Positions 2,853-26,018 of a stretch of 32,533 bases of DNA are shown here, piece after piece. This DNA is from Burkholderiales bacterium (GTDB lineage Bacteria > Pseudomonadota > Gammaproteobacteria > Burkholderiales > UBA11063). The translations under genes and the position numbers were made by a program. The notes beneath the pieces were generated by a model that was given only the letters and a program-made list of their open reading frames with translations, ran no database searches and was not told the origin of the DNA. How positions within the stretch are numbered: position 1 is the stretch's first letter; each line of letters starts with the position of its first letter. The stretch lies in NCBI GenBank assembly GCA_019744945.1, contig JAIETT010000199.1:1-32533 (forward strand), in the 5' to 3' direction.

Positions 2853-4091
2853 ATGAAACAACAACAACCATCATTATTTGATAACATTACTCAGGCGTAC
2901 TTAGGACGCGATGAGGTGTCAAATCAAGAACTTTATACTATATTGGCAGCCAAAGGTGTGGATAGTTCTGCGTTAGATAAGAAATCACCAGTTGGTAAAT
3001 CAGGATCGCAGCATAGTTTACTTAAACGTTCGATTCGATGGCAGCAGCAAACGCTAAAACAGTTAAATTTATTAGAGAAAGTTGCAAATAAGCGATCTAT
3101 TTGGAAATTAACAGATGGTGGTAAAAAGAAATTTTCGGCATTACATGAAATTAATGATGGGCACGTGGTGTTGGCATTTTCTACAACGCTTGGTTTGGCG
3201 CTTTGGGCAAACTGCAAAACGTTATTTTCAGCTATAAATGAACCGATTGCACTTAGTATTTCTTCTCCACCATACCCATTGAATAACCCTAAAGCATATG
3301 GCAATGTAAAAGAATCTGTATATGTTGACTGGATTTGCGAAGCTATAGAACCAATTGTTAAAAACTTAGTTAAAGGCGGCTCAATTGTTATTAATGTTGG
3401 CAATGATGTGTTTTTAAAAGGCTTACCAGCCAGATCCAATTATAGAGAGCGTATGGTTATAGCCTTTGAAGATCGTTTAGGGTTATTTAAAATGGATGAA
3501 ATTCCGTGGATAAACACGTCAAAAGCACCTGGTCCAATATTTTGGTCTAGTATAACTAGGCAGCAGCTTAATTCCGCGTGGGAGCCTGTTTATTGGTTTA
3601 CTAATGACCCCAAAAAATGTTTATCTAATAATAGAAGAGTACTACAAACACATTCTGAAAAACATTTGCAATGGTTAAAAAATAGATCCTTGACTGAAAC
3701 TGTAAGTGAGCGTGTAAACTCAGATGGCGCACATAAAGTAAGACGCGATAGTTACGCCAACATTACGGATGGAAAAATACCTAGAAATATATTTGTAAGA
3801 GGTCATCGATGCGTGGATCAGAATTTATATAAATCAAATTGTCTTAAATTAGGCATACAGCCTCATGGCGCGCCATTTCCACTTGAGTTAGCTAAATTCT
3901 TTATTGAGTTTTTAACTAAAGTAGATGATTTAGTTGTCGATCCTTTCGCTGGTAGCTTTACCGTTGCAAAAGCAGCAGAAACACTTGATCGAAAATGGAT
4001 CTGTACTGATATTATTTGGGAGTATTTACGTGGTAGCTATACAAGATTTGATAATGCGGTTATGAATAGTGAGTTTAGTTTTATTAATTAA
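2853..4091 (+). CDS. site-specific DNA methyltransferase (N4/N6 type) with N-terminal winged-helix-like region
   Basis: SPPY catalytic motif (LSISSPPYPLNN) and C-terminal DPFAGSFTVAKAAETLDRKWICTDI SAM-binding motif. Confidence 0.85.
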   Translation: MKQQQPSLFDNITQAYLGRDEVSNQELYTILAAKGVDSSALDKKSPVGKSGSQHSLLKRSIRWQQQTLKQLNLLEKVANKRSIWKLTDGGKKKFSALHEINDGHVVLAFSTTLGLALWANCKTLFSAINEPIALSISSPPYPLNNPKAYGNVKESVYVDWICEAIEPIVKNLVKGGSIVINVGNDVFLKGLPARSNYRERMVIAFEDRLGLFKMDEIPWINTSKAPGPIFWSSITRQQLNSAWEPVYWFTNDPKKCLSNNRRVLQTHSEKHLQWLKNRSLTETVSERVNSDGAHKVRRDSYANITDGKIPRNIFVRGHRCVDQNLYKSNCLKLGIQPHGAPFPLELAKFFIEFLTKVDDLVVDPFAGSFTVAKAAETLDRKWICTDIIWEYLRGSYTRFDNAVMNSEFSFIN

Positions 4092-4667: not shown

Positions 4668-4728
4668 ATTATATACTAAGTGAATCTAATTTGTTCACGT
4701 TATAGTTAAAATAAACTCAAAATACGCG
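4668..4728 (+). repeat. direct repeat copy B
   Basis: See 4210-4271. Confidence 0.85.
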
Positions 4729-4766
4729 TTTTCGTTGGTGTTTTTATTATTTTGAAATTGTATAAT
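4719..4766 (+). promoter_or_regulatory. dispersed promoter-like element, copy 2 (box plus -10 TATAAT)
   Basis: AAAATACGCGTTTTCGTTGGTG, 20-nt gap, TATAAT; first gene begins at 4819. Confidence 0.7.
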
Positions 4767-4818: not shown

Positions 4819-5631
4819 ATGTTAAATAAATTAGAGGCTGGTAATAAGATTTATAGGTATTGCAATAATCTAATAAATGTTGGCTGGTTCACTGGTTATA
4901 TTATTAACTTAAGCCCAGACCGTAAATCTTTTTATATTCGTCAATCTCGTTATGCGTCTCATCTATTTTTAGTTGAAATGGCGCATAATGATTTTTTGCC
5001 AAGTATTTTTAAAGAGGGCTCTGGAATCAAAATTATGGCACGCTTAATCCAGCACGACATTAATGGTATGAAATCTATAAAGCTATTGCCACTTTATGCT
5101 GAACGCGCCGCAAAAAGTCAATTACCTGACATTGATGACGTCAATACCGAAGACTCTCCAAAAGTGAAAACTTTCAACCCTTATTTTTCTTATAATCTTA
5201 CACCAGTTCCAGGCTCGGCCATTAATACCGTATTGGTTGCTGGATTCATTGATACACTTATTCATGACACGCATGAAAATGGCGAAGTTAAAGGTGATTG
5301 TTTGTTAATGGGATTAAGAACAGGGTTAAATGATGTTCTGCCGGTTAGGATATACGGAAATAGAGCGGCCTCTGAATTTAACACCATAAAAAGAACAAAA
5401 GACAAAGGTAAATTTCAACCAGTAGCTTTTGACACTCAGCTGCGGTCTAAAATAATCAAAATTGATGATCCTGAACAAGGGGAGTTGAATCATATTATCT
5501 CTTACGTCCACTCTAGTGTAATCACTACAATGGATCCAAATGATTGTGAAGAACATTTTCTTGGCACTCCAGATTGGTTTCTGCAGGTGCAAAAAGAGTG
5601 GTTAGCTCAGCAAACTGAAATTCAGAAATAA
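4819..5631 (+). CDS. hypothetical protein, first gene of the apparent transfer operon
   Basis: 270-aa ORF with RBS aaggag. Confidence 0.7.
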   Translation: MLNKLEAGNKIYRYCNNLINVGWFTGYIINLSPDRKSFYIRQSRYASHLFLVEMAHNDFLPSIFKEGSGIKIMARLIQHDINGMKSIKLLPLYAERAAKSQLPDIDDVNTEDSPKVKTFNPYFSYNLTPVPGSAINTVLVAGFIDTLIHDTHENGEVKGDCLLMGLRTGLNDVLPVRIYGNRAASEFNTIKRTKDKGKFQPVAFDTQLRSKIIKIDDPEQGELNHIISYVHSSVITTMDPNDCEEHFLGTPDWFLQVQKEWLAQQTEIQK

Positions 5632-5639
5632 ATCTAAAC

Positions 5640-6182
5640 ATGAGTAACTTTAGTTTGCAAGATTGGTATTTATCTGATAGTCAAATCAAATTGATTTCAG
5701 TTATTAAACATCATGTAAAAGCAATTTTAGTTACTCCTGGTGCAAAACAATTAAATAGTTTAACCTGGATGTTTGAAAATCATCAAATATTGGGACAGGT
5801 TTCTTTACAAGACTGTTGTTCAGCGTTGGAAATATCAATAAGTTTAATTCGCATTCGAATGCAATATGAAATATACGCAAATCACTTAAATTTAATTAAT
5901 CTTTTTAATAGTCAATTACCAGAGGTACTTTCAGAAGAGATTCTAGTTCATGTTGATATGGATTTAAATGCACTACGAGTAGCTAAATTAATTTGGAGTA
6001 ATCCTGGCGTTAACATGGAGCAACTCATTAAATTGACTGATTCAGACATTGGGTTAAGTATTCATTTAGAAAAGTTAAACAAATTTATTGCGAAACAAGA
6101 AAATCAGTACTATTTACCTGGTCGCAATATCTCTAATCATCAAAATATTAATTGGGCTAAATGCTGGAGCTTTTATGACTAA
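5640..6182 (+). CDS. hypothetical protein
   Basis: 180-aa ORF. Confidence 0.65.
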   Translation: MSNFSLQDWYLSDSQIKLISVIKHHVKAILVTPGAKQLNSLTWMFENHQILGQVSLQDCCSALEISISLIRIRMQYEIYANHLNLINLFNSQLPEVLSEEILVHVDMDLNALRVAKLIWSNPGVNMEQLIKLTDSDIGLSIHLEKLNKFIAKQENQYYLPGRNISNHQNINWAKCWSFYD

Positions 6183-7632
6183 ATATAAACACATAATCAA
6201 GTACAACCTAATAATTTATTTTGTAATTTATCTAGCTATTGCCATATGGTCATTTTTAGACAAACAAATACATATGGATGAATTAATAAATTCACTAGGC
6301 GGCGCAATGCTATTAATCATTGGAATAATTCCAACAGGCTTTGCTTCAACATTAGTTTTAATTACATTACAAAAAAAATATATAACCGATAAGCTATATA
6401 AACCTAGATCCAATGGGCGATATAGCATTACTCAAGGTGATTTGCCCGCTGTTGTTCAACATAAATTTACATCAGCAACATCAACTAAAAAATCTTTGAC
6501 ACCCAATATACTAACTTGGCTAACTAGCTTAGATGAAAGCCAATCTAAATACGCAGATCTATTTCTAACAATTGCTGGAATTTTGAAACAAAAGCGTAAT
6601 GCATTAGCTGAGTTAAACGAATCAGCTTTACTCTATACCCACAGTAAAAAAGTTACCGATGAAATTCTTAAACTCCAAAACTTAAGTGATGTTGAAGTGC
6701 AAAACCATTTTAAAAATGACGATAATTTTAAAAAACACTATCTCAATATTAGAGATGTTATAACCGCTTTACGTTCACCATTAATGGTGATAATCGGTTT
6801 ATGCCACGATGTTGGCAAATTAGACTCCCCATTATATTCAGGTCAAACATCATATCTATCAGACTTTGGTATTCGCGGAAGAAATTTATTAGCAAAACTT
6901 AAGGAAACATGGTTACTTCCTAAAGATGATTATAATGATTTATTTATTGTTATGGCAAACTATAGTAATTATGATAATGCACCTAAATTACTAAAGGATG
7001 GTGAATTAGTCGTTAAGTCCGTAAATGCAACATGCCTAACGGTAGTACTTTTGCATTGCCATGCTCTTGAGTTGAAAAACCCTTTACTAGATGAAGAAGA
7101 ACTAGATGACAACGAGCCTCTCGATTATGTAGAACCATGCTTACAATTAGCCACAGAGGTTCTCTTTACGACTAGCACAGCAGCTAAAACCAACGAATCA
7201 ATGGTTCAACCAGAACTTCAAGATGAGGAGCTTGTTGAACAATTTGAACAGATTATAACGATAGAGCAGATTCTTCCACCAACTAATGCTCCAGCTTGTA
7301 ATTTATTGACCGACGAAGAACTTCAATCTCATGAGCAAGAAATTAGCAATGTCTTGAATACAAAACGACTACATAAACAGAATCCATCTCGATGTAAATT
7401 ACCTGATGATAGGATGGAGGTAAGTAATTTATTTCCATCAAAAACACCTTCAGAGCCTTCTGTTAAAATTCAAAGATCACGCATCGGCGATGATCAACAA
7501 ATTCGCAAAAGTCTAAGGCAGACATATCAAGCATCTAAAAAACGCGAGACCAGTCCCAAATCATTTAGCATTCATAACCATATCAATAAAAAGCCAACGG
7601 AGAAATCTAATGAACAAACTGAGTCAATATAA
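6175..7632 (+). CDS. membrane-anchored HD-domain protein (possibly related to TraI_2/MobH-type HD proteins)
   Basis: ORF track begins at 6088, but ATG 6175 with upstream GGAG is more plausible. Two N-terminal TM segments, then LMVIIGLCHDVGKLDSPLYSG. Confidence 0.6.
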   Translation: MTKYKHIIKYNLIIYFVIYLAIAIWSFLDKQIHMDELINSLGGAMLLIIGIIPTGFASTLVLITLQKKYITDKLYKPRSNGRYSITQGDLPAVVQHKFTSATSTKKSLTPNILTWLTSLDESQSKYADLFLTIAGILKQKRNALAELNESALLYTHSKKVTDEILKLQNLSDVEVQNHFKNDDNFKKHYLNIRDVITALRSPLMVIIGLCHDVGKLDSPLYSGQTSYLSDFGIRGRNLLAKLKETWLLPKDDYNDLFIVMANYSNYDNAPKLLKDGELVVKSVNATCLTVVLLHCHALELKNPLLDEEELDDNEPLDYVEPCLQLATEVLFTTSTAAKTNESMVQPELQDEELVEQFEQIITIEQILPPTNAPACNLLTDEELQSHEQEISNVLNTKRLHKQNPSRCKLPDDRMEVSNLFPSKTPSEPSVKIQRSRIGDDQQIRKSLRQTYQASKKRETSPKSFSIHNHINKKPTEKSNEQTESI

Positions 7633-8419: not shown

Positions 8420-8744
8420 CTACTTCACTTTAAATTCAAACTGGGATATTAAAACGCTGATAGTTGGTGTGGTAATTATTATTTTGATTTATTTACTGCT
8501 TTTAGTTATACCTGGCGTTGGAGTTGTTGTCAAGCATATAACTCATACAATAACTAAATATGTGCTTCATCCACTATTTCACGCAACGGTGGTTGTAGTG
8601 GGAACTTGGATCTTACAATTTTTTTGGTTCTTGTTTAAGCATTTTCTATTTGCGGTCAAAGGTTATTGTTACCATTTAACCAGAACGCATGAAAAAATTT
8701 ATCCCAAATTGGCTAAAAAGAAAATTGGAGTTATTGATGAATAA
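8412..8744 (+). CDS. membrane protein
   Basis: 110-aa ORF with at least two hydrophobic segments. Confidence 0.65.
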   Translation: MFDYFTLNSNWDIKTLIVGVVIIILIYLLLLVIPGVGVVVKHITHTITKYVLHPLFHATVVVVGTWILQFFWFLFKHFLFAVKGYCYHLTRTHEKIYPKLAKKKIGVIDE

Positions 8745-9369
8745 AACACTATATTGTTTACTCATGATAATTGTGGCTAATCTTGCTATCTCTGAAGACC
8801 TAGGCATCATCGGTAAAACCTATCCAATTGGTGAACAAAATTTAATGGATTACATTAAATCGCGTGCAACAACATTAGTTAATAATGGCCAATGGGAAAA
8901 CTTACGCAAAAAAGCAGTAAGAGACACAGAAAACAAGATTGATCACCCACCTGTCATTGCTGGGATCTATCCAACCGTGGAGAGTTCGGTTCGCTATTAT
9001 GATCCAGCAGTAAGAATTAACCAGGATATTATTAATCCTTATGATAAGAGTATTATTGCTCGTAAAGGACAAATCGTAAACCCAACGATGTATATGTCAT
9101 TCAATAATGAGTTAATTTTCATTGATGGCCGAGATAAGAATCAAGTTGAATACGCATTGGCAGAAAGTAAGCGCTCTCCATTTCAAAGCAGTATTGTATT
9201 AATCGCTGCAAATAATTTTAGAGATTTATTACGACAAGAGCAACATTTATTTTTCTATGACCAAGGTGCCGCATTAACTAAGAAATTTAATATTCGTCAT
9301 GTACCAACAATAATTTATCAGGATCAAGTTAAACCAACAAAATTAAGAATTGAGGAAGTAAAGCTATGA
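8737..9369 (+). CDS. traW: type-F conjugative transfer protein TraW
   Basis: MNKTLYCLLMIIVANLAISEDLGIIGKTYPIGEQNLMDYI... signal peptide plus TraW-like GxxGxxYPIxE start; followed by traU and trbC as in F-type systems. Start moved from 8689 to ATG 8737 with GGAG RBS. Confidence 0.75.
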   Translation: MNKTLYCLLMIIVANLAISEDLGIIGKTYPIGEQNLMDYIKSRATTLVNNGQWENLRKKAVRDTENKIDHPPVIAGIYPTVESSVRYYDPAVRINQDIINPYDKSIIARKGQIVNPTMYMSFNNELIFIDGRDKNQVEYALAESKRSPFQSSIVLIAANNFRDLLRQEQHLFFYDQGAALTKKFNIRHVPTIIYQDQVKPTKLRIEEVKL

Positions 9370-9749
9370 AGTATTTTATATGCGCACTTTGTGCGTGTAC
9401 ACTTATTGGATGCTCAAAATTTGATAATGCAAAGCTAACCGAATGTGAATATAACAATAAAAACCTAGCTGAATCAAGTTTGACATATCAAACCAAATTA
9501 CTGGTTCAAACCAAAAAAAACATTGAGCTTGAATTTAAAATTGAATCCGAAGTTGAATCTAGGATGCATAAGCAAAAAATAGCTTTGGCAAACGAACGTG
9601 AAAGCATGATTGAAGAAAATAATCATGCTCGAGCAACTCTGCGGAGTATTTTTGGTTTGGCAGTACTTGGTCTATTAGTTGGCTTAGCAATGATTAACTA
9701 TTGGGTAATAACAAAATATTTAACAAGGAAGACTAAAGATGCAAAATAA
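9366..9749 (+). CDS. lipoprotein with C-terminal TM
   Basis: MKYFICALCACTLIGCSK lipobox. Confidence 0.65.
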   Translation: MKYFICALCACTLIGCSKFDNAKLTECEYNNKNLAESSLTYQTKLLVQTKKNIELEFKIESEVESRMHKQKIALANERESMIEENNHARATLRSIFGLAVLGLLVGLAMINYWVITKYLTRKTKDAK

Positions 9750-10782
9750 CCTCAATAAGATCTTAGTCTTGCTTTTATTGATGATTTCTGGACTAAGTAC
9801 CGCAACTGCTCAATGTGTTGGGAAGTGGGCGAATCCAATTACTGATATTTGTTGGTCTTGCATGTTTCCATTTATGATTGCAGGACTACAGATAGATAAT
9901 CTACGTGGTGAGCAACCCGCTGGTTCGTTTACTGCACCAGCAGTTTGTGCGGGGATGACACCAATTGGATTTAAAATAGGAATTGGTATGGACTTTTATG
10001 ACCCAAATCGAATTGTTGACGTAACTAGAACACCATATTGCATGGTCGGGCTTGGTGGCGTAAATATGAGCGCAGGCCTAGCTAATTTATATAAACGGGC
10101 TGGTACCGCCACGCAGGATGAAAAAATCAAGGTAAAGCAATTCTATCAGGCCCACACCTATATAGATCCATTGCTGTTTTTACTTGAGGTTCCAATTGAC
10201 ATGTCTTGCACGCAAGTAGCTGGATTTGATGTCGGTTACTTGACTGAGTTAGATCCATTATGGAATAATGACTCATTAACTTTTTTCCTAAATCCTGATG
10301 CAATTTTATATGCAAATCCAGCAACAGCAGTCACCTCGGCTTTGGATTGTGTAGCTAATTTACCTGGAGCTTGGAATGTTGCGAGTGGATTAGCGTACTG
10401 GAGTGCAGGATGCCAGGGTTCAATGTACCCATTAGATGGTAATTTACCAGGGGACACCTCAATTAATGATAGTGTTCTAACTATGGAGCGCCTATTACAT
10501 AAAAATCATCGTCAACTAATTGAATTTTCAACAGCAGGTCCATTAGCAATGTTTGCGGCTTTTGTACCTCAACCATTAATGAATAAAACAGAGTACAAAT
10601 ACAGCATGATTTACCCGATTGGATTTGTTGATCCGTTATCAGGAGGCAAATGTTGCTCACCATTTGGGCGAACAACTACAGGATGGAGCGCGGCGCATTC
10701 ATTTCCAACCATGGGTGAAGATTTTAGTTTCCATATATATCAACGTCGTGATTGCTGTAGCGGTATAACCATTCCTATGTAA
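9739..10782 (+). CDS. traU: conjugative transfer protein TraU
   Basis: Cys-rich periplasmic protein: CVGKWANPITDICWSCMFPFMIAG..., GGKCCSPFGRTTTGWSAAHSFP..., RDCCSG. Confidence 0.9.
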   Translation: MQNNLNKILVLLLLMISGLSTATAQCVGKWANPITDICWSCMFPFMIAGLQIDNLRGEQPAGSFTAPAVCAGMTPIGFKIGIGMDFYDPNRIVDVTRTPYCMVGLGGVNMSAGLANLYKRAGTATQDEKIKVKQFYQAHTYIDPLLFLLEVPIDMSCTQVAGFDVGYLTELDPLWNNDSLTFFLNPDAILYANPATAVTSALDCVANLPGAWNVASGLAYWSAGCQGSMYPLDGNLPGDTSINDSVLTMERLLHKNHRQLIEFSTAGPLAMFAAFVPQPLMNKTEYKYSMIYPIGFVDPLSGGKCCSPFGRTTTGWSAAHSFPTMGEDFSFHIYQRRDCCSGITIPM

Positions 10783-12548: not shown

Positions 12549-14303
12549 CTATTTTTTTATTGGACGATCCAAGTTTTCATATTTGCTATCTTCTTCACTT
12601 AGTTCTCTCTGTAATTTAACCACATCAATATATTTTTTATAATTTAATTTGAGACTTAGCCCTTTTTCAGGAATATCAACGCCTAATCTATTCACTTGAA
12701 ATGGATGGTTGTGTTCCGAATTTACCATCGGCATTTGAAGGTGATAAATTTCTCTACCTCCAACGGTCAAAATGCATTCACCAATGCCAAGAGCTTCAAT
12801 TTGTGGTGCAGTGATGATATCTACATCTGATTCTTGATGACCATATGATTGCCCAGTACCATCGCCAGCGGTAGCGTTTGGAGCAACTTGCAAATTTTGC
12901 TTGCTTTGGCTATTGCTCTCAGTGTTGGTAAGCGTGTATTTTATTGATTTGGTTGTTCCAATGTTTTTAACAATACGTTCAGCGGTATCTAAGTCTCCAA
13001 CTTTAAGGTAAATTTTACTCCAGGAATTACCCTCGACAATTGAAAGTAGTTCAGGACTAATTTTCTTGTAATTTGCATCAGTTTGAACGGCTGGCATCAT
13101 CACAATTCTAGCCGAGCGAGCTTGTTCAAATAATCTACCCCAGGAATCATTAACATACGATCCAGCCTCATCCATTGAAGCGAGGAATAATGGACTAGGC
13201 TTCTTACTTTCAGGGAGTTTTAATACCCAAGATACAGCAGTCCTTAGATCTGAAACCAATATTTTACCGAATGCATTGGCCGCTTCAGTTTTACCAAGCG
13301 TTGGCAGCATGACCCACAGGATTTTATTTTGAGTTATTACATCAAATAACTTAATATCTGGATTATAGTTATTTGTAATCTCACCAAACTTATTTGTTCC
13401 CAGCATAAAAATACGCCCACCAACACCACCGAACATATCTTTTAACGCTTGACCGTCGATACGACCTTTTTTAATAAACTTACTTAGCAAGGTTTTAAAA
13501 TTAATTGCCGCCTCATGGTACTCATCAATAGCCGATAGTCTTTCGTCTAACTCCATTAGCGCCTTATCTGACATTAATAAAAGCGCCAAATCTATCATTG
13601 AATAAGCTAAACCAGCTTGTTGCAAAGCGCCAACAAAGATAGTTAAGGCAACTGTTGCTTCAGTTCTATAATGGTCCGAGCCTGGATTGTTTTCTGAAGA
13701 TGGAATTAAGGAAATAATCCGTGTAGCCACCTCATCAGGATCGCCATACAATATAGGATTGTAGGTGTTTGAAAGCTCTGGGAAGTCGATGTTTACGACT
13801 AAAACATCATCACCGCGACCAATGCTACACATCAAGCTGTAAAACTTTAAAAAATCCCCTTGGTCATTTTTACCATCAATGTGCATTAAACCACCTCCTT
13901 GTAGGGCATGCTGGAACAATATATTTCTAACCAATACGCTTTTACCAGTACCAGATTGTCCAATTATCATGATATGCCTAGTCATTATCTCAAAGTAAAG
14001 TCTAATCGAAACAGCTGTGTCCGATGTATAGCCAATTTCATAGCTTTTATAAATATCAACATTAACTGGTGGTGGGCTTGATTTGAACTTAGTGCTGGTT
14101 TCCAATTTATGAGCTCGTCGATATTCATCGAGCAAACGATACGATATGCCAATCATACCAATAAAAGACAAAAACGTCGTAAAAATATGAATTTTTGTAC
14201 TGTAGAATAGTGGTGTAATCATTATTATAGGTAATAAAACTAACGTGATACAAATTGTATCTTTATTACCACCAATTTGAATTTCATTTAATTTTTTTAA
14301 CAT
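12549..14303 (-). CDS. traD: TraD/VirD4-family type IV coupling protein
   Basis: Two N-terminal TMs, Walker A GQSGTGKSVLVRN, GGGLMHIDGKNDQGDF, FLASMDEAGSYVNDSWGRLFEQARSARI. Confidence 0.9.
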   Translation of the reverse strand: MLKKLNEIQIGGNKDTICITLVLLPIIMITPLFYSTKIHIFTTFLSFIGMIGISYRLLDEYRRAHKLETSTKFKSSPPPVNVDIYKSYEIGYTSDTAVSIRLYFEIMTRHIMIIGQSGTGKSVLVRNILFQHALQGGGLMHIDGKNDQGDFLKFYSLMCSIGRGDDVLVVNIDFPELSNTYNPILYGDPDEVATRIISLIPSSENNPGSDHYRTEATVALTIFVGALQQAGLAYSMIDLALLLMSDKALMELDERLSAIDEYHEAAINFKTLLSKFIKKGRIDGQALKDMFGGVGGRIFMLGTNKFGEITNNYNPDIKLFDVITQNKILWVMLPTLGKTEAANAFGKILVSDLRTAVSWVLKLPESKKPSPLFLASMDEAGSYVNDSWGRLFEQARSARIVMMPAVQTDANYKKISPELLSIVEGNSWSKIYLKVGDLDTAERIVKNIGTTKSIKYTLTNTESNSQSKQNLQVAPNATAGDGTGQSYGHQESDVDIITAPQIEALGIGECILTVGGREIYHLQMPMVNSEHNHPFQVNRLGVDIPEKGLSLKLNYKKYIDVVKLQRELSEEDSKYENLDRPIKK

Positions 14304-16675: not shown

Positions 16676-16723
16676 ATTATACAGAGGCACACAAAGTAAT
16701 TTACCAACGAAAACGCGTATTTT
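16676..16723 (-). promoter_or_regulatory. dispersed promoter-like element, copy 3 (box plus -10 TATAAT)
   Basis: Minus strand AAAATACGCGTTTTCGTTGGTA, 20-nt gap, TATAAT. Confidence 0.7.
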
Positions 16724-16789
16724 TAAATTTACTGTAAATTATTCTCCACAAAGTAGAATTTTACGCATCTATCCATTATCAGGCGGCAA

Positions 16790-18829: not shown

Positions 18830-19450
18830 TAAATCGCTTCGCTATACAAATACCGATCTTGCGCCACCATCGAGGTGGTTTAGATCGAGCTGCGCCACTT
18901 TTACCCACCCCCAAACCCATAATGCTTGCACAACGCACCCCCTAAGAAAATCTACGCAATGAGCTACAGGACAGCTTACCTGCCTTGAAGTGTTTGGTCT
19001 GCGCTTTCCAGCACAGTCCATAAATTATGCTTGCTTTTTATTCGCTATTCAATAACCCCTGCCAATTAATTGTGCTGGGGTTATTTCACTTCACGCTCGC
19101 AAAATGCGCATAATTTAACTCACTAATCAAGCCAGGAACATTCAGCATTCAGGCAATGAAAATTGTGCCTGATTGCTTCATTCTTTTAAAGTGTAACTCA
19201 TTGCTAGGTTTTCTAATCCAAAAATTTTTTGTCACATTTTTTTGCGCGCAAATAAATGATGAAATAAATTTTAATGGACAAGGGGGGATGCTTGTTGTGC
19301 CGCTATATGGGTATGGGGGTGGGAAATACACAGACCCGCAAAGTTCTTTTACAAATTGGATTTTCGATTAACAAGCAGATTAATAGCTGACTACTTACGG
19401 CGGACGTGGCGAACCACTAATTTTACCGTGAACTGGTTAAGGGCTTGTGA
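18830..19450. other. non-coding inverted-repeat-rich region, candidate oriT/oriV or structured RNA
   Basis: Hairpins CGATCT-tgcgCCACCatcgaGGTGGttt-AGATCG (18854-18887), AATAACCCC...GGGGTTATT (19051-19085), ATTCAGG...CCTGAT (19147-19173); diverged G-rich inverted repeat 18900-18946 / 19281-19327. Confidence 0.5.
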
Positions 19451-22091: not shown

Positions 22092-22122
22092 TTTTGTAAA
22101 AAGCCGCCGAATTCTCGGCGGC
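22092..22122 (-). terminator. minus-strand intrinsic terminator at the 3' side of the non-coding interval
   Basis: Minus strand GCCGCCGA-gaat-TCGGCGGC-TTTTTACAAAA; no T-run on the plus-strand side. Confidence 0.75.
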
Positions 22123-25100
22123 ACGTAGTTCATTTTTAAAAGCCAGTATCGGTTTAATTGTCGTACGCTCATTTTTCCCGACCCGCCCATGCGAAGTAGG
22201 ACAAAATTTAACCACCAACGATTGAGCTTTGCTGATCCGTAAAATTTAGCTTTTGACAAAATTTAAGACTTACTACCGTGCGCATAAATTTAGTAAATAA
22301 ATTTGTATCACTAATGCTTGAGCCATGGTGCTGTACCATGGCAACAATCATTTTCACGCGCTTCAAATTTACCAGCTATTTTACGTGATGATTTAATTCA
22401 GGTTATGAAATTGTACCTGAATTAAATCAAAAGAAGTTAGCTCAATATCCTTGGCGCTAATTTTGTGTTTGATTAAACCCAATGAGCGCACTGATAACCG
22501 CTTTTTAGGTTTCATTTTAAAGAAAACCTAAAAAACCAATGGGGCAGAAGCCCAAGTAATTCGCGCCGCTCATATTGATGTAAAACTAAGTTGTCTGATT
22601 GATAAAGAATAGACGGCTCCAAAAACACAAAGGGGCGTAACCCTTTTATTTTTTGTGAGCTAGGTGAGGACAGTATAGCTATTTGATTTACTCTAAAATG
22701 AAAGTGGCCAGTCTAAAAAGACTGGCACACGATGGTGTTTAATGTAGATCCTTTCATCTACAGTTAATAGCAATAAATTAATCATTGCTTAAGTTTTACA
22801 ATCCAACTAAATGGATTTAGTTGCCATGGCACAAAGTCCGATGGAGATTTAGTTTTTACTACGAATGCATTTTTATTTCCGCATTCTCAGTTATTAGATT
22901 TCAACACAACAAATGTATTGAACCGATTAAGTTAAGTAGCTTCAATTAAAAAGCTTAAGTCAAATCTATTAGCGCCAGAGTGGCTTAACGATTTTATGTT
23001 CATTTAGACAAGTACCCAATTGTGCATTGAATAAACATCCTCAAATGATTGGAAAGTTGCTCAAGTAAAATTTGTGTAATCAAACTTTACTCTTTCGACC
23101 GAAAACTCAACGCATCCTAAATAAATAGAATGGCCAGGGAACAGCGTTATCGAAATTAGAGAATTTACCTGTTGCGCGCGTACTAAAATTTTTGTTCATG
23201 AAGATTCCTAGAAAAAGGAACGCATCGAGTACCCACCACGGGAACACAAAGCATTCCGAGTGAGTACAAAAAAGATTAGCTGCACTAAATCCAAAAGATA
23301 CTATTATCCCATTCTCATCTTCATTTAAGAAAACAAGCTTTTCAAAAAATATTTCTAATTTTTGATTGGAATTTAATATTTCCTGGATCCGTACAAACTA
23401 TAATTGACGGAGATTTTTTTGAAAGTGAAACAGCTGCGACTAAACAACTGCCAACTTAATGACTCAAAAACCATTCCCCAAATCACGGTCACCCATGATT
23501 CTCATTCCTGTTTTTTGCTAAATTTCAAAAGCCAAAATGGCTAAATAGACTTAGACAATAACAGTTCCACCCCCAACTTTCGTTCACAACATGGCTTGGT
23601 GCCACCACATTGCTATCTGTTTCCGACCTAATTCTTGGTACCACCCAAGAAAAAAAAGTCTGCCGTATCAGAACCTACTCATCGAGTCTCCCACTCATAG
23701 ATCAGTGTAACTTCTTGCGACGTTACGTTTCACGCGATTAACGAATTGCTCTACAGCAATCCTACCACTTCGCATTACTCAAATCTTTAGAGCTTCCCCG
23801 CATAGTTATGATTTCTTTTTAATGCACTGTTTGCCGTCTTGCGATTATTTCACTTTGCACCTGATTTTTTGTCAAGGTGCAGATATGTGGGTTATAAGGT
23901 TCCTGGAAAGTTACCCCCATATCAGCTTAGTAATCGTATCAAGTCTCGCCTTATCGGCACGGACACATCCGCATCTTCCCACGATAGAACCCCAGGTGGG
24001 TCCATGTACATTCTTAAACTATGTCCAGCGATCCAACATTATTCCGCGACTCTGCGCGGTTTTTTGCTGGTACCAGTCAATCCAACAGCCTTTCGACCAT
24101 CTCATGACCCTGCGCCCTTTCGGAAGCGCCTCAGCAGCCTTGAATGTGTGGCTCAGTCACATAGGTTTCCCTACATTACTAGGTGGATTAGTGAGCTTGC
24201 CAGCTCACAGAACGTCTTTTAGGGTTTCCCCACATAGTTGTCCTTTGTCACCACTTTAATCATAACAGGCTCATCGCTTCAGTCGTGGCTCGCGCCCTTT
24301 ACTTTCACGATTAAGTTACATCAGTTATTGAACGTCATAGGTACCATTGGCACATAACATAACTCTTGTGTAACCAGTAGTTTCGACAAAATGTCTTATC
24401 TACCTGCCGGCTCACGGTCATCCAACCTGCACCCCAGGGTGCATAGTATCTTTTGGGATGTGGATAGATAGGGGGATGAACCCCTAGCCCCACTCGTAGC
24501 GCAGTGAACCACTCTTCGCGGTACTGCGCTTCGGCTTGAAGAACAACAACAGATTGGTGATCTGTGTTGTCTGGTGAATGTTGCAACTAAATAGAATTGG
24601 CGGTTCCATCTAGTTGCCAGTTTGAGTCATTAAGTTTTATAAATTCTGGTTGGTAACCAGAAATGAATTATTGAGTCCGCTAGTTTTCCTTTCTAGCTGC
24701 GGACATCAAAAACAAATTAAAATTTGAATAAATGGCTTCGCAGCTAGTTGGGTTAGTCGGCCCAATTTTGCTTTTACAAAATTAATTACTGATTGGCAAT
24801 CAGTTTATAGGAATCGCCGCAACTTTAGTTGCAGCTTCAAAGTAATCAAAGATTATTTTATCACAAAACCTAAGCCGGTCTTTGTGAAAAAATAATTTTG
24901 AGTTTGTGGGCTTACGCCCAGCATAGGAACCTTATATATGCAGCGTCGCCATTTTGCTTTGCAAAATTCAGCGACTAAGCAAAAAATTCATAAAAATAAG
25001 GTATTTACCTCAAATTGATCAAAAAACAGTGTTTTTTGCAATTTGATCTATTAAGAGTATTATTTTGCAATCCTAAAATTGCAAAATAATTTAAAAAAAA
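22123..25100 (-). ncRNA. extended hairpin-rich non-coding interval, candidate giant structured RNA or several RNAs
   Basis: No credible ORFs for ~3 kb and dense inverted repeats throughout, e.g. GATTTAATTCAGGT/ACCTGAATTAAATC (22390-22428), TTTTTAGGTTT/AAACCTAAAAA, GCCATGG/CCATGGC, CAACTAAA/TTTAGTTG, GTCGC/GCGAC, ACCTTAT/ATAAGGT. Ends are inferred. Confidence 0.55.
23453..24636 (-). ncRNA. core GC-richer ornate structured RNA domain, family unknown
   Basis: Closed by a perfect 16-bp long-range helix (23453-23468 with 24621-24636). Minus-strand hairpins with G.U pairs and GNRA loops: CAAUGUGG/CCAUGUUG (23587-23612), AAUCAUGG[GUGA]CCGUGAUU (23481-23500), AUGUAGG[GAAA]CCUAUGU (24159-24176), GGC[GCGA]GCC (24287-24296), CAACUAGAUGG/CUAUUUAGUUG (24584-24616). 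Confidence 0.75.
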
Positions 25101-25103
25101 TGA

Positions 25104-25151
25104 AAAATACGCGTTTTCGTTGGTATTTTTGTTTTTTAATTCCTTTAAACT
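25104..25151 (+). promoter_or_regulatory. dispersed promoter-like element, copy 4 (box plus -10-like TAAACT)
   Basis: AAAATACGCGTTTTCGTTGGTA, 20-nt gap, TAAACT; gene starts at 25179. Confidence 0.55.
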
Positions 25152-25178: not shown

Positions 25179-26018
25179 ATGAGTAAATATTCACATAAAG
25201 CTAATTTAGAAAATTTATATTTTATAACCACTTTAACTGGTTTTATGAAAGAAGTACAAAGACAAATACAAATTGGTTATAAGTATTATTTTGAAAATAA
25301 ATTTGAATATACAAAGCTTAAGGATGTTTTAGGTCGATTGGATGAAGATTATCATGTGTGTGAATCTTCTGATGACAGATGGCACAGACAACAAGAAAAT
25401 AAAGTTAGCGTTCAACTTATAATGTTTTACCACGGCGGAGATATGATTCACTTTGTGCTTTTGGCCAGAGAGGGAATCAATGGTTCAAAAAATCATAATT
25501 TTTTTAAGACCCTTAAACCTAAAGATGCAACTTTAGGACATCAACGATTTACACTGAATCAATATATGTTGATTCGATGCAATAAACAAAGTTATGAACT
25601 AAAAGATCAAAATATTAACGTTCCTGCCGTTGTCGGACAATGGAGTTATGGATTACAAAAAACTTATATTGATGAGATTAAACGTGACTTTCTTCAATAT
25701 CTAAAGTTGAATGATACCTACCGCCTCAATCAACTTTATAGAAGTTTGACCAAACTAATTGCATTCGGTAAAGTTAGAACTAATTATGTTAATTTGAGAA
25801 TATTTATGGCTAAAGAGATAAATATTAGACTTAAATCTGATAAGTTTTTTAAAACAACAATTGCTGGAGATTTTTATGGCATGCCAGAAAAATTGCCAAT
25901 ATTAAAAGGCATTAAAATCCCAACCATTACAGTTGCGGAACAAATTAAGCCAACTATTTTAAAAAAAATGACTCACCCAGAACTATCAAGAAAGACAATG
26001 ATTTTTAATGATGAATAA
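25179..26018 (+). CDS. hypothetical protein
   Basis: 279-aa ORF, first gene after promoter-like element copy 4. Confidence 0.7.
   Translation: MSKYSHKANLENLYFITTLTGFMKEVQRQIQIGYKYYFENKFEYTKLKDVLGRLDEDYHVCESSDDRWHRQQENKVSVQLIMFYHGGDMIHFVLLAREGINGSKNHNFFKTLKPKDATLGHQRFTLNQYMLIRCNKQSYELKDQNINVPAVVGQWSYGLQKTYIDEIKRDFLQYLKLNDTYRLNQLYRSLTKLIAFGKVRTNYVNLRIFMAKEINIRLKSDKFFKTTIAGDFYGMPEKLPILKGIKIPTITVAEQIKPTILKKMTHPELSRKTMIFNDE

Follow-up and report, generated by a model that had tools for sequence, protein, structure and literature searches.

Large ribozyme classes are very few, and circularly permuted (CP) group II RNAs, also described as 'T-large' RNA (Roth et al. 2021; PMC8637638), form one of them; what they do is stated to be unknown (PMC8637638). 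They are relatives of group II introns of ~900 nt in which Domains 5 and 6 (D5 and D6) have been moved to the 5' end, and they occur on plasmids, beside an open reading frame (ORF) named acpG, some members having no acpG nearby (PMC8637638). Their published D5 signature comprises an AGC start, five pairs and a UN bulge, and the splice-site motifs NU and GGGCG are found around a linker of 15-86 nt (PMC8637638). Self-processing into a circle and a branched RNA has been demonstrated for five members; the tested members function as RNA, and expression in cells was observed for one of them (PMC8637638). Plasmid pPNAP05 of Polaromonas is named as a carrier, with the RNA located near the origin, and the main text of the same paper makes no mention of secretion systems or integrases (PMC8637638).

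Here, we analysed a stretch of 32,533 nucleotides from a Burkholderiales bacterium (hereafter the window), within which the initial annotation had described positions 22092-25150 as an interval without credible genes that encodes a candidate giant non-coding RNA of about 3 kb on the minus strand, in the style of GOLLD, ROOL and OLE and with no known family signature. We conclude, with a probability of roughly 0.85, that the region encodes on its minus strand a divergent CP group II ribozyme, as regards both identity and chemistry. Profiles of 20 aligned RNAs, built before the CP group II identity was known, match positions 88-771 of pPNAP05 with E-values of 1.4e-62 and 1e-49; the window copy sits within the same collinear alignment as the profile RNAs, and an AcpG-type partner protein is also encoded on pPNAP05. 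Because of this match, the D5 signature, the order of D6, linker and D1, and the presence of AcpG, we assign the RNA to this known class, within which it is divergent. A first reading as a categorically new RNA class was dropped, PMC8637638 having shown the class to be known, and the initial impression of an RNA with no recognised family signature is thus not upheld. Searching the window with cmscan at Rfam cut-offs, as the initial annotation had proposed, returned no match; at E-values up to 10, only weak sub-threshold matches to unrelated families were found and none to GOLLD, ROOL or OLE, and the Rfam group II intron model matched neither the window nor the homologues. Since the published pPNAP05 member has no cmscan match either, Rfam release 15 is blind to this class. 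In substance, the objection that the RNA might be a known intron thus holds, even though cmscan is unable to reveal this.

The elements of the RNA follow one another along the minus strand in the order expected for the class. At the 5' end (24544-24815), there are hairpins with GCCAA/ACCAA-type apical loops, including the one at 24616-24584; similar hairpins with UGCCAA loops are present in several homologues, and by position the 5' hairpins would correspond to P1/P2 of the published RNAs (PMC8637638). The D5-like hairpin (24530-24498), one of the helices listed in the initial annotation, starts with AGC and has an 8-bp lower stem (AGC plus five pairs), a UC bulge and a GAAGA loop (AGCGCAGU..UC..ACUGCGCU), matching the description of D5 in PMC8637638, and it corresponds to a homologous block that reads 'GAAGCCGCRUGC..GGCUGGYRCGGCUAC' across the alignment. 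Directly 3' of it folds a D6-like hairpin (24493-24460), homologous to GGGCGCU..UUCGACCC of distant members, in which the bulged A within CUAUCC is a candidate branch point. A 34-nt linker (24457-24424) follows, flanked by CACAU, which resembles a 3' splice site, and GGAUG, which resembles a 5' splice site; the ACAU of the 3' site fits the NU motif, the linker length lies within the published range (PMC8637638), and the linker is predicted to become an RNA circle on excision. The alignments place the D1 to D4-like region from GGAUG at 24423 down to 23560, and this region includes a multibranched domain (24155-24003) captured by our covariance model R1 and supported by covariation. The 5' splice-site motif is GGAUG in the window copy, in the copy on a second contig of the same genome (C1) and in that of G016, a complete chromosome from this genus, whereas most distant members have GGGCG at the start of D1 together with ..AAU at the end of D6. 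Because of this replacement, the activity of the present lineage is uncertain.

If the window copy behaves like the published members, D5 and D6 would fold at the 5' end of the RNA, followed by D1-D4; the branch-point A in D6 would attack the 5' splice site where D1 begins, yielding a branched RNA and freeing the short linker between D6 and D1 as a circle. By the same analogy, the window copy would be catalytically active. Besides its collinearity with pPNAP05 and the 5' D5, D6, short linker and D1 arrangement, the RNA shares with CP group II members a core of ~0.9-1.1 kb, an adjoining and often divergent acpG, residence on both plasmids and chromosomes, and the lack of an intron-encoded protein. 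It differs from them in having GGAUG instead of GGGCG in this genus, a longer inner hairpin in the R1 domain, a possible long 3' extension and an activity that is so far predicted. The D5-, D6- and D1-like elements are also shared with canonical bacterial group II introns, so that the branching chemistry is presumably the same; unlike these introns, the window RNA has a permuted domain order, no reverse transcriptase gene and no Rfam match.

Covariation in the R1 domain is strong, as a test on homologues suggested by the initial annotation revealed. In an alignment of 22 sequences, which was fitted to the structure, 98.5% of the cells pair, compared with 75.6% after shuffling and 29-41% when the partners were slid by 1-3 columns; both sides have changed in 29 of the 46 pairs, where shuffling gives a mean of 18.0, and covariation scores 0.524 compared with 0.160 after shuffling. 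An independent, unconstrained MAFFT alignment of 20 loci recovered the same collinear blocks upstream and downstream. The pair cells contain 186 G-U and 0 A-C combinations, and the minus strand is therefore the folded one, in support of the original argument that G.U pairs keep the helices continuous on this strand only. All seven helices quoted in the initial annotation were located on the minus strand at their coordinates, and its central proposal, a large and elaborately folded minus-strand non-coding RNA, stands, given strong covariation in an RNA without an Rfam match.

The absence of credible genes from 22092-25150 is likewise confirmed, the ORFs found there, including 23822-24259 (plus strand) and 24335-24586 (minus strand), being unsupported. 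Nor do the conserved copies point to a gene, since the indels between them have lengths other than multiples of three. The proposed extent of ~3 kb holds only in part: conservation is strong between ~24815 and ~23560 and weak in the 3' part. The conserved core of the CP group II-type RNA (23560-24815, minus strand), both ends of which are estimates from sequence, is delimited by homology to C1 and G016, by the alignment of 17 distant loci and by covariation. A putative 3' extension of the transcript (22629-23559, minus strand) is suggested by a layout common, by eye, to the C1 and G016 copies and by a terminator scan, which identified terminator-like hairpins at 22646-22629, the predicted transcript end, and at 22726-22707; up to the former hairpin, the 3' part shows this layout in the two close relatives and is weakly conserved. 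The suggestion that the RNA could exceed GOLLD, ROOL and OLE in size may accordingly hold for a putative transcription unit of ~2.2-2.5 kb, but the conserved ribozyme core measures only ~1.1 kb. Past the terminator lies a separate conserved non-coding element (22100-22610, minus strand), common to C1 only, which consists of an inverted repeat (TTTAGGTTTT..AAACCTAAA) followed by TTTRATCAAACACAAAATT and CATGGGYGGGT, and which is possibly a cis site such as oriT. Its counterpart is located at 8540-8830 of locus L015, and both elements of this genome have one past the RNA terminator. On the other side, a sequence of ~35-55 nt preceding the RNA (25137-25085, minus strand) recurs at 4706-4752, 16702-16743 and 2150-2184, as well as on other contigs and in related genomes of the genus; it is possibly a regulatory site or promoter element common to several places.

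Homologues of the RNA are rare and scattered. Within the genus, copies were found in two of the 24 genomes, and among 399 genomes sampled from the phylum the window's own, an incomplete assembly, was the sole carrier; the 1.05-kb core is 80% identical in C1 and 74% identical in G016. The AcpG-type protein of the window shares 32-36% identity with the two other copies from the genus, the RNA thus being the better conserved of the two. In genome G000, contigs C4 and C1 each hold one of two related elements; the arrangement is the same in both (DNA methyltransferase, element, RNA, acpG), but their acpG proteins are only 32% identical. Searching phages and plasmids with the region by blastn yielded no match, an 18-base exact pattern found none in the genomes scanned, and viral scans gave chance-level matches only; because the RNA diverges fast, the covariance model and a short RNA motif were needed. 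Model R1, which covers a domain of 152 nt, found copies in other families of the order; scanning GTDB genomes for the RNA motif extended the set to Burkholderia, Dechloromonas and a Thiocystis MAG; and plasmid protein and DNA searches contributed E. coli, Pandoraea, Paraburkholderia, Ralstonia, Halomonas, Azotobacter, Thiothrix, Sulfuriferula, Burkholderia glumae and Gluconacetobacter. The homologues thus span Beta-, Gamma- and Alphaproteobacteria. A weak covariance-model match (G365/L034) was treated as doubtful. Plasmid pTunz1 of Thiothrix unzii carries two RNA copies (3491-3614 and 18888-19011), and the Gallionella copy adjoins a tRNA, where an apparent repeat came from overlapping windows only and was disregarded.

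Divergent to the RNA, the window encodes a protein of 279 aa (25179-26018, plus strand) of the AcpG (TTHC007) type, homologues of which adjoin the RNA at most loci. Such a neighbour is frequent and not obligatory in the class. The partner proteins are ~210-280 aa long and usually divergent to the RNA, which fits AcpG/TTHC007, a protein of ~260 aa that adjoins CP group II RNA and has no known homology; tblastn with a partner homologue reaches Thermus plasmids. Near the RNA of Dechloromonas agitata (4932-4809 of its locus), acpG is absent, and the divergent position is taken by a 719-aa protein (5288-7447), by eye resembling a DNA cytosine methyltransferase. The AcpG of the window matched no Pfam or NCBIfam family. 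Of two AlphaFold models of AcpG, the first was poor (pLDDT 40), and the second (72.9) gave no significant match to the PDB or to a viral library; in the absence of a confident fold match in either, no nuclease fold was seen.

Several other readings of the same locus were weighed. A new class of giant RNA in the style of GOLLD, ROOL and OLE, forming a scaffold or cage and unrelated to group II introns, would account for the size, the many hairpins, the GNRA-type loops, the mobile-element setting and the missing Rfam match. The window RNA does resemble GOLLD, ROOL and OLE as a very large, elaborately folded non-coding RNA, and GOLLD and ROOL are also found on mobile elements (PMC12286853). There is, however, no sequence or model match to any of the three, and none of them has the permuted ribozyme architecture; GOLLD and ROOL are known from phages and prophages near tRNA islands (PMC12286853), whereas none of our homologues comes from a phage record. 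A kissing interaction between the 5' UGCCAA-type loops and a UGGCA loop close to the 3' end is conceivable, but the published pseudoknot between the P1 loop and the 3' end would explain this complementarity. With the pPNAP05 homology, the D5/D6/linker/D1 order and AcpG also against it, kinship with these giant RNAs is not supported, and we regard such a class as very unlikely. The rarity and patchiness of the RNA would suit a misordered, decayed and functionless remnant of ordinary group II introns; strong covariation across three proteobacterial classes, a D5 signature that has been kept and an RNA better conserved than the adjoining protein make such decay scarcely credible. It is just as hard to believe that the folded strand that matters is single-stranded DNA, such as an oriT or leading-region fold: the mobile-element setting would be appropriate and G-T pairs form in DNA too, but the pair counts, while fixing the strand, fit RNA best, and the tested members of the class act as RNA (PMC8637638). 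The locus is thus best described as a CP group II ribozyme.

The elements that carry this ribozyme are of several kinds. The window element has F-type transfer genes, namely traU (9739-10782, plus strand; PF06834, E = 7e-81) and a gene for a type IV coupling protein-like ATPase (12549-14303, minus strand; Pfam TraG-D_C and TrwB_AAD_bind). VirB genes are present on the E. coli and Pandoraea carrier plasmids, MPF_T genes on Ralstonia pRP6297_1 and Gluconacetobacter pGDIPal5I, and MPF_F genes in Burkholderia glumae; the RNA is flanked by acpG on one side and the coupling-protein gene on the other in Pandoraea, Paraburkholderia, Ralstonia and Gluconacetobacter. No type IV secretion system (T4SS) was seen in the examined stretches of the Thiothrix, Novacetimonas, Gluconobacter and Azotobacter carriers. 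Other carriers are plasmids of 3-4 kb and integrase islands, such as a 5.7-kb island (G101) composed of an integrase, the RNA, acpG and two other genes and delimited by 17-bp repeats of a tRNA-Ser end. Island L032 also encodes a NucS-like PDC-S18 protein and island L033 an NTPase, but a defence role was rejected because such cargo varies from island to island. In E. coli, 22 RNA-bearing plasmids (seven of ~3 kb and 15 of ~30 kb) occur in 21 of 5,426 genomes; RepL was present on both of the two 3-kb plasmids examined, and over 705 nt the RNAs of a ~3-kb RepL plasmid and a 34-kb T4SS plasmid share 96% identity. A piece of ~180 nt from a 3-kb E. coli plasmid (L056) is also ~80% identical to three places on the 34-kb plasmid L057. 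Almost all carriers were typed as non-mobilizable: 29 of 30 AcpG-bearing plasmids, 25 of 25 RNA-bearing ones and 16 of 16 in another set found in the same way. These sets overlap, and the counts are not independent, as the AcpG plasmids include ten close relatives from E. coli; among the best-scoring 5,000 TraU-bearing plasmids, 159 were typed non-mobilizable and 4,640 conjugative. Relaxase families PF03432, PF08751, PF03389 and PF07514 were each found in none of ten carrier plasmids. Since MOB-suite misses new relaxases, the carriers possibly encode a relaxase of a novel family, perhaps AcpG itself.

Gene context tentatively suggests that the RNA and AcpG function in the transfer of mobile elements, a possibility we hold with low confidence. 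The carriers comprise T4SS plasmids that have no recognised relaxase, tiny plasmids and integrase islands. A mobilization module would be expected on elements of all three kinds, and the RNA and AcpG would take the position of such a module (relaxase and oriT). That they form an RNA-based module substituting for a protein relaxase is a more specific and unlikely proposal, in which the ribozyme, or a ribonucleoprotein with AcpG, would start or guide DNA transfer via the type IV secretion system and would act on DNA strands, like group II introns. Counted against a role in transfer are a possibly overlooked relaxase, the carriers in whose examined stretches no T4SS was seen, the lack of a nuclease fold match for AcpG, the chromosomal copy in T. 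thermophilus and the fact that a ~30-kb plasmid is co-resident in just one of the seven E. coli genomes with a ~3-kb plasmid. An action after entry or on expression, by which the RNA would regulate or protect the incoming element in the recipient or control conjugation genes, would suit its position beside acpG and the coupling-protein gene in the four genera named above, and canonical group II introns can target relaxase mRNA (Qu et al. 2018, as cited in PMC8637638); we consider it doubtful, the same RNA being present on elements without transfer genes. Control of plasmid replication or copy number is quite unlikely, despite the occurrence of the RNA on very small plasmids, its position near the origin of pPNAP05 (PMC8637638) and the broad transcription of pMtBL on both strands (PMC10033558). 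The replication unit of pMtBL that suffices in a plasmid-free strain spans 1918-2759 (PMC10033558); both the RNA (~3088-3897) and acpG (83-700) lie outside it, so that this self-sufficient origin excludes the RNA. Replication of pTT8 was likewise unaffected by deletion of most of the RNA (Aoki and Itoh 2007, as cited in PMC8637638), and the RNA accompanies unrelated replication proteins (RepL, TrfA and PF03090 types) and also resides on integrated islands. The presence of the RNA on pMtBL, an Antarctic expression-vector plasmid, partly explains the large unannotated region of that plasmid.

What is new here is the setting of the RNA, on T4SS plasmids and integrase islands that both lack a recognised relaxase, and on minimal plasmids; the ribozyme class itself was already known. 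As Rfam release 15 misses the class, such loci will go on being read as empty DNA or as an 'unknown giant RNA'. From the common setting, including the position between acpG and the coupling-protein gene, follows a concrete and testable proposal for the role of CP group II ribozymes.
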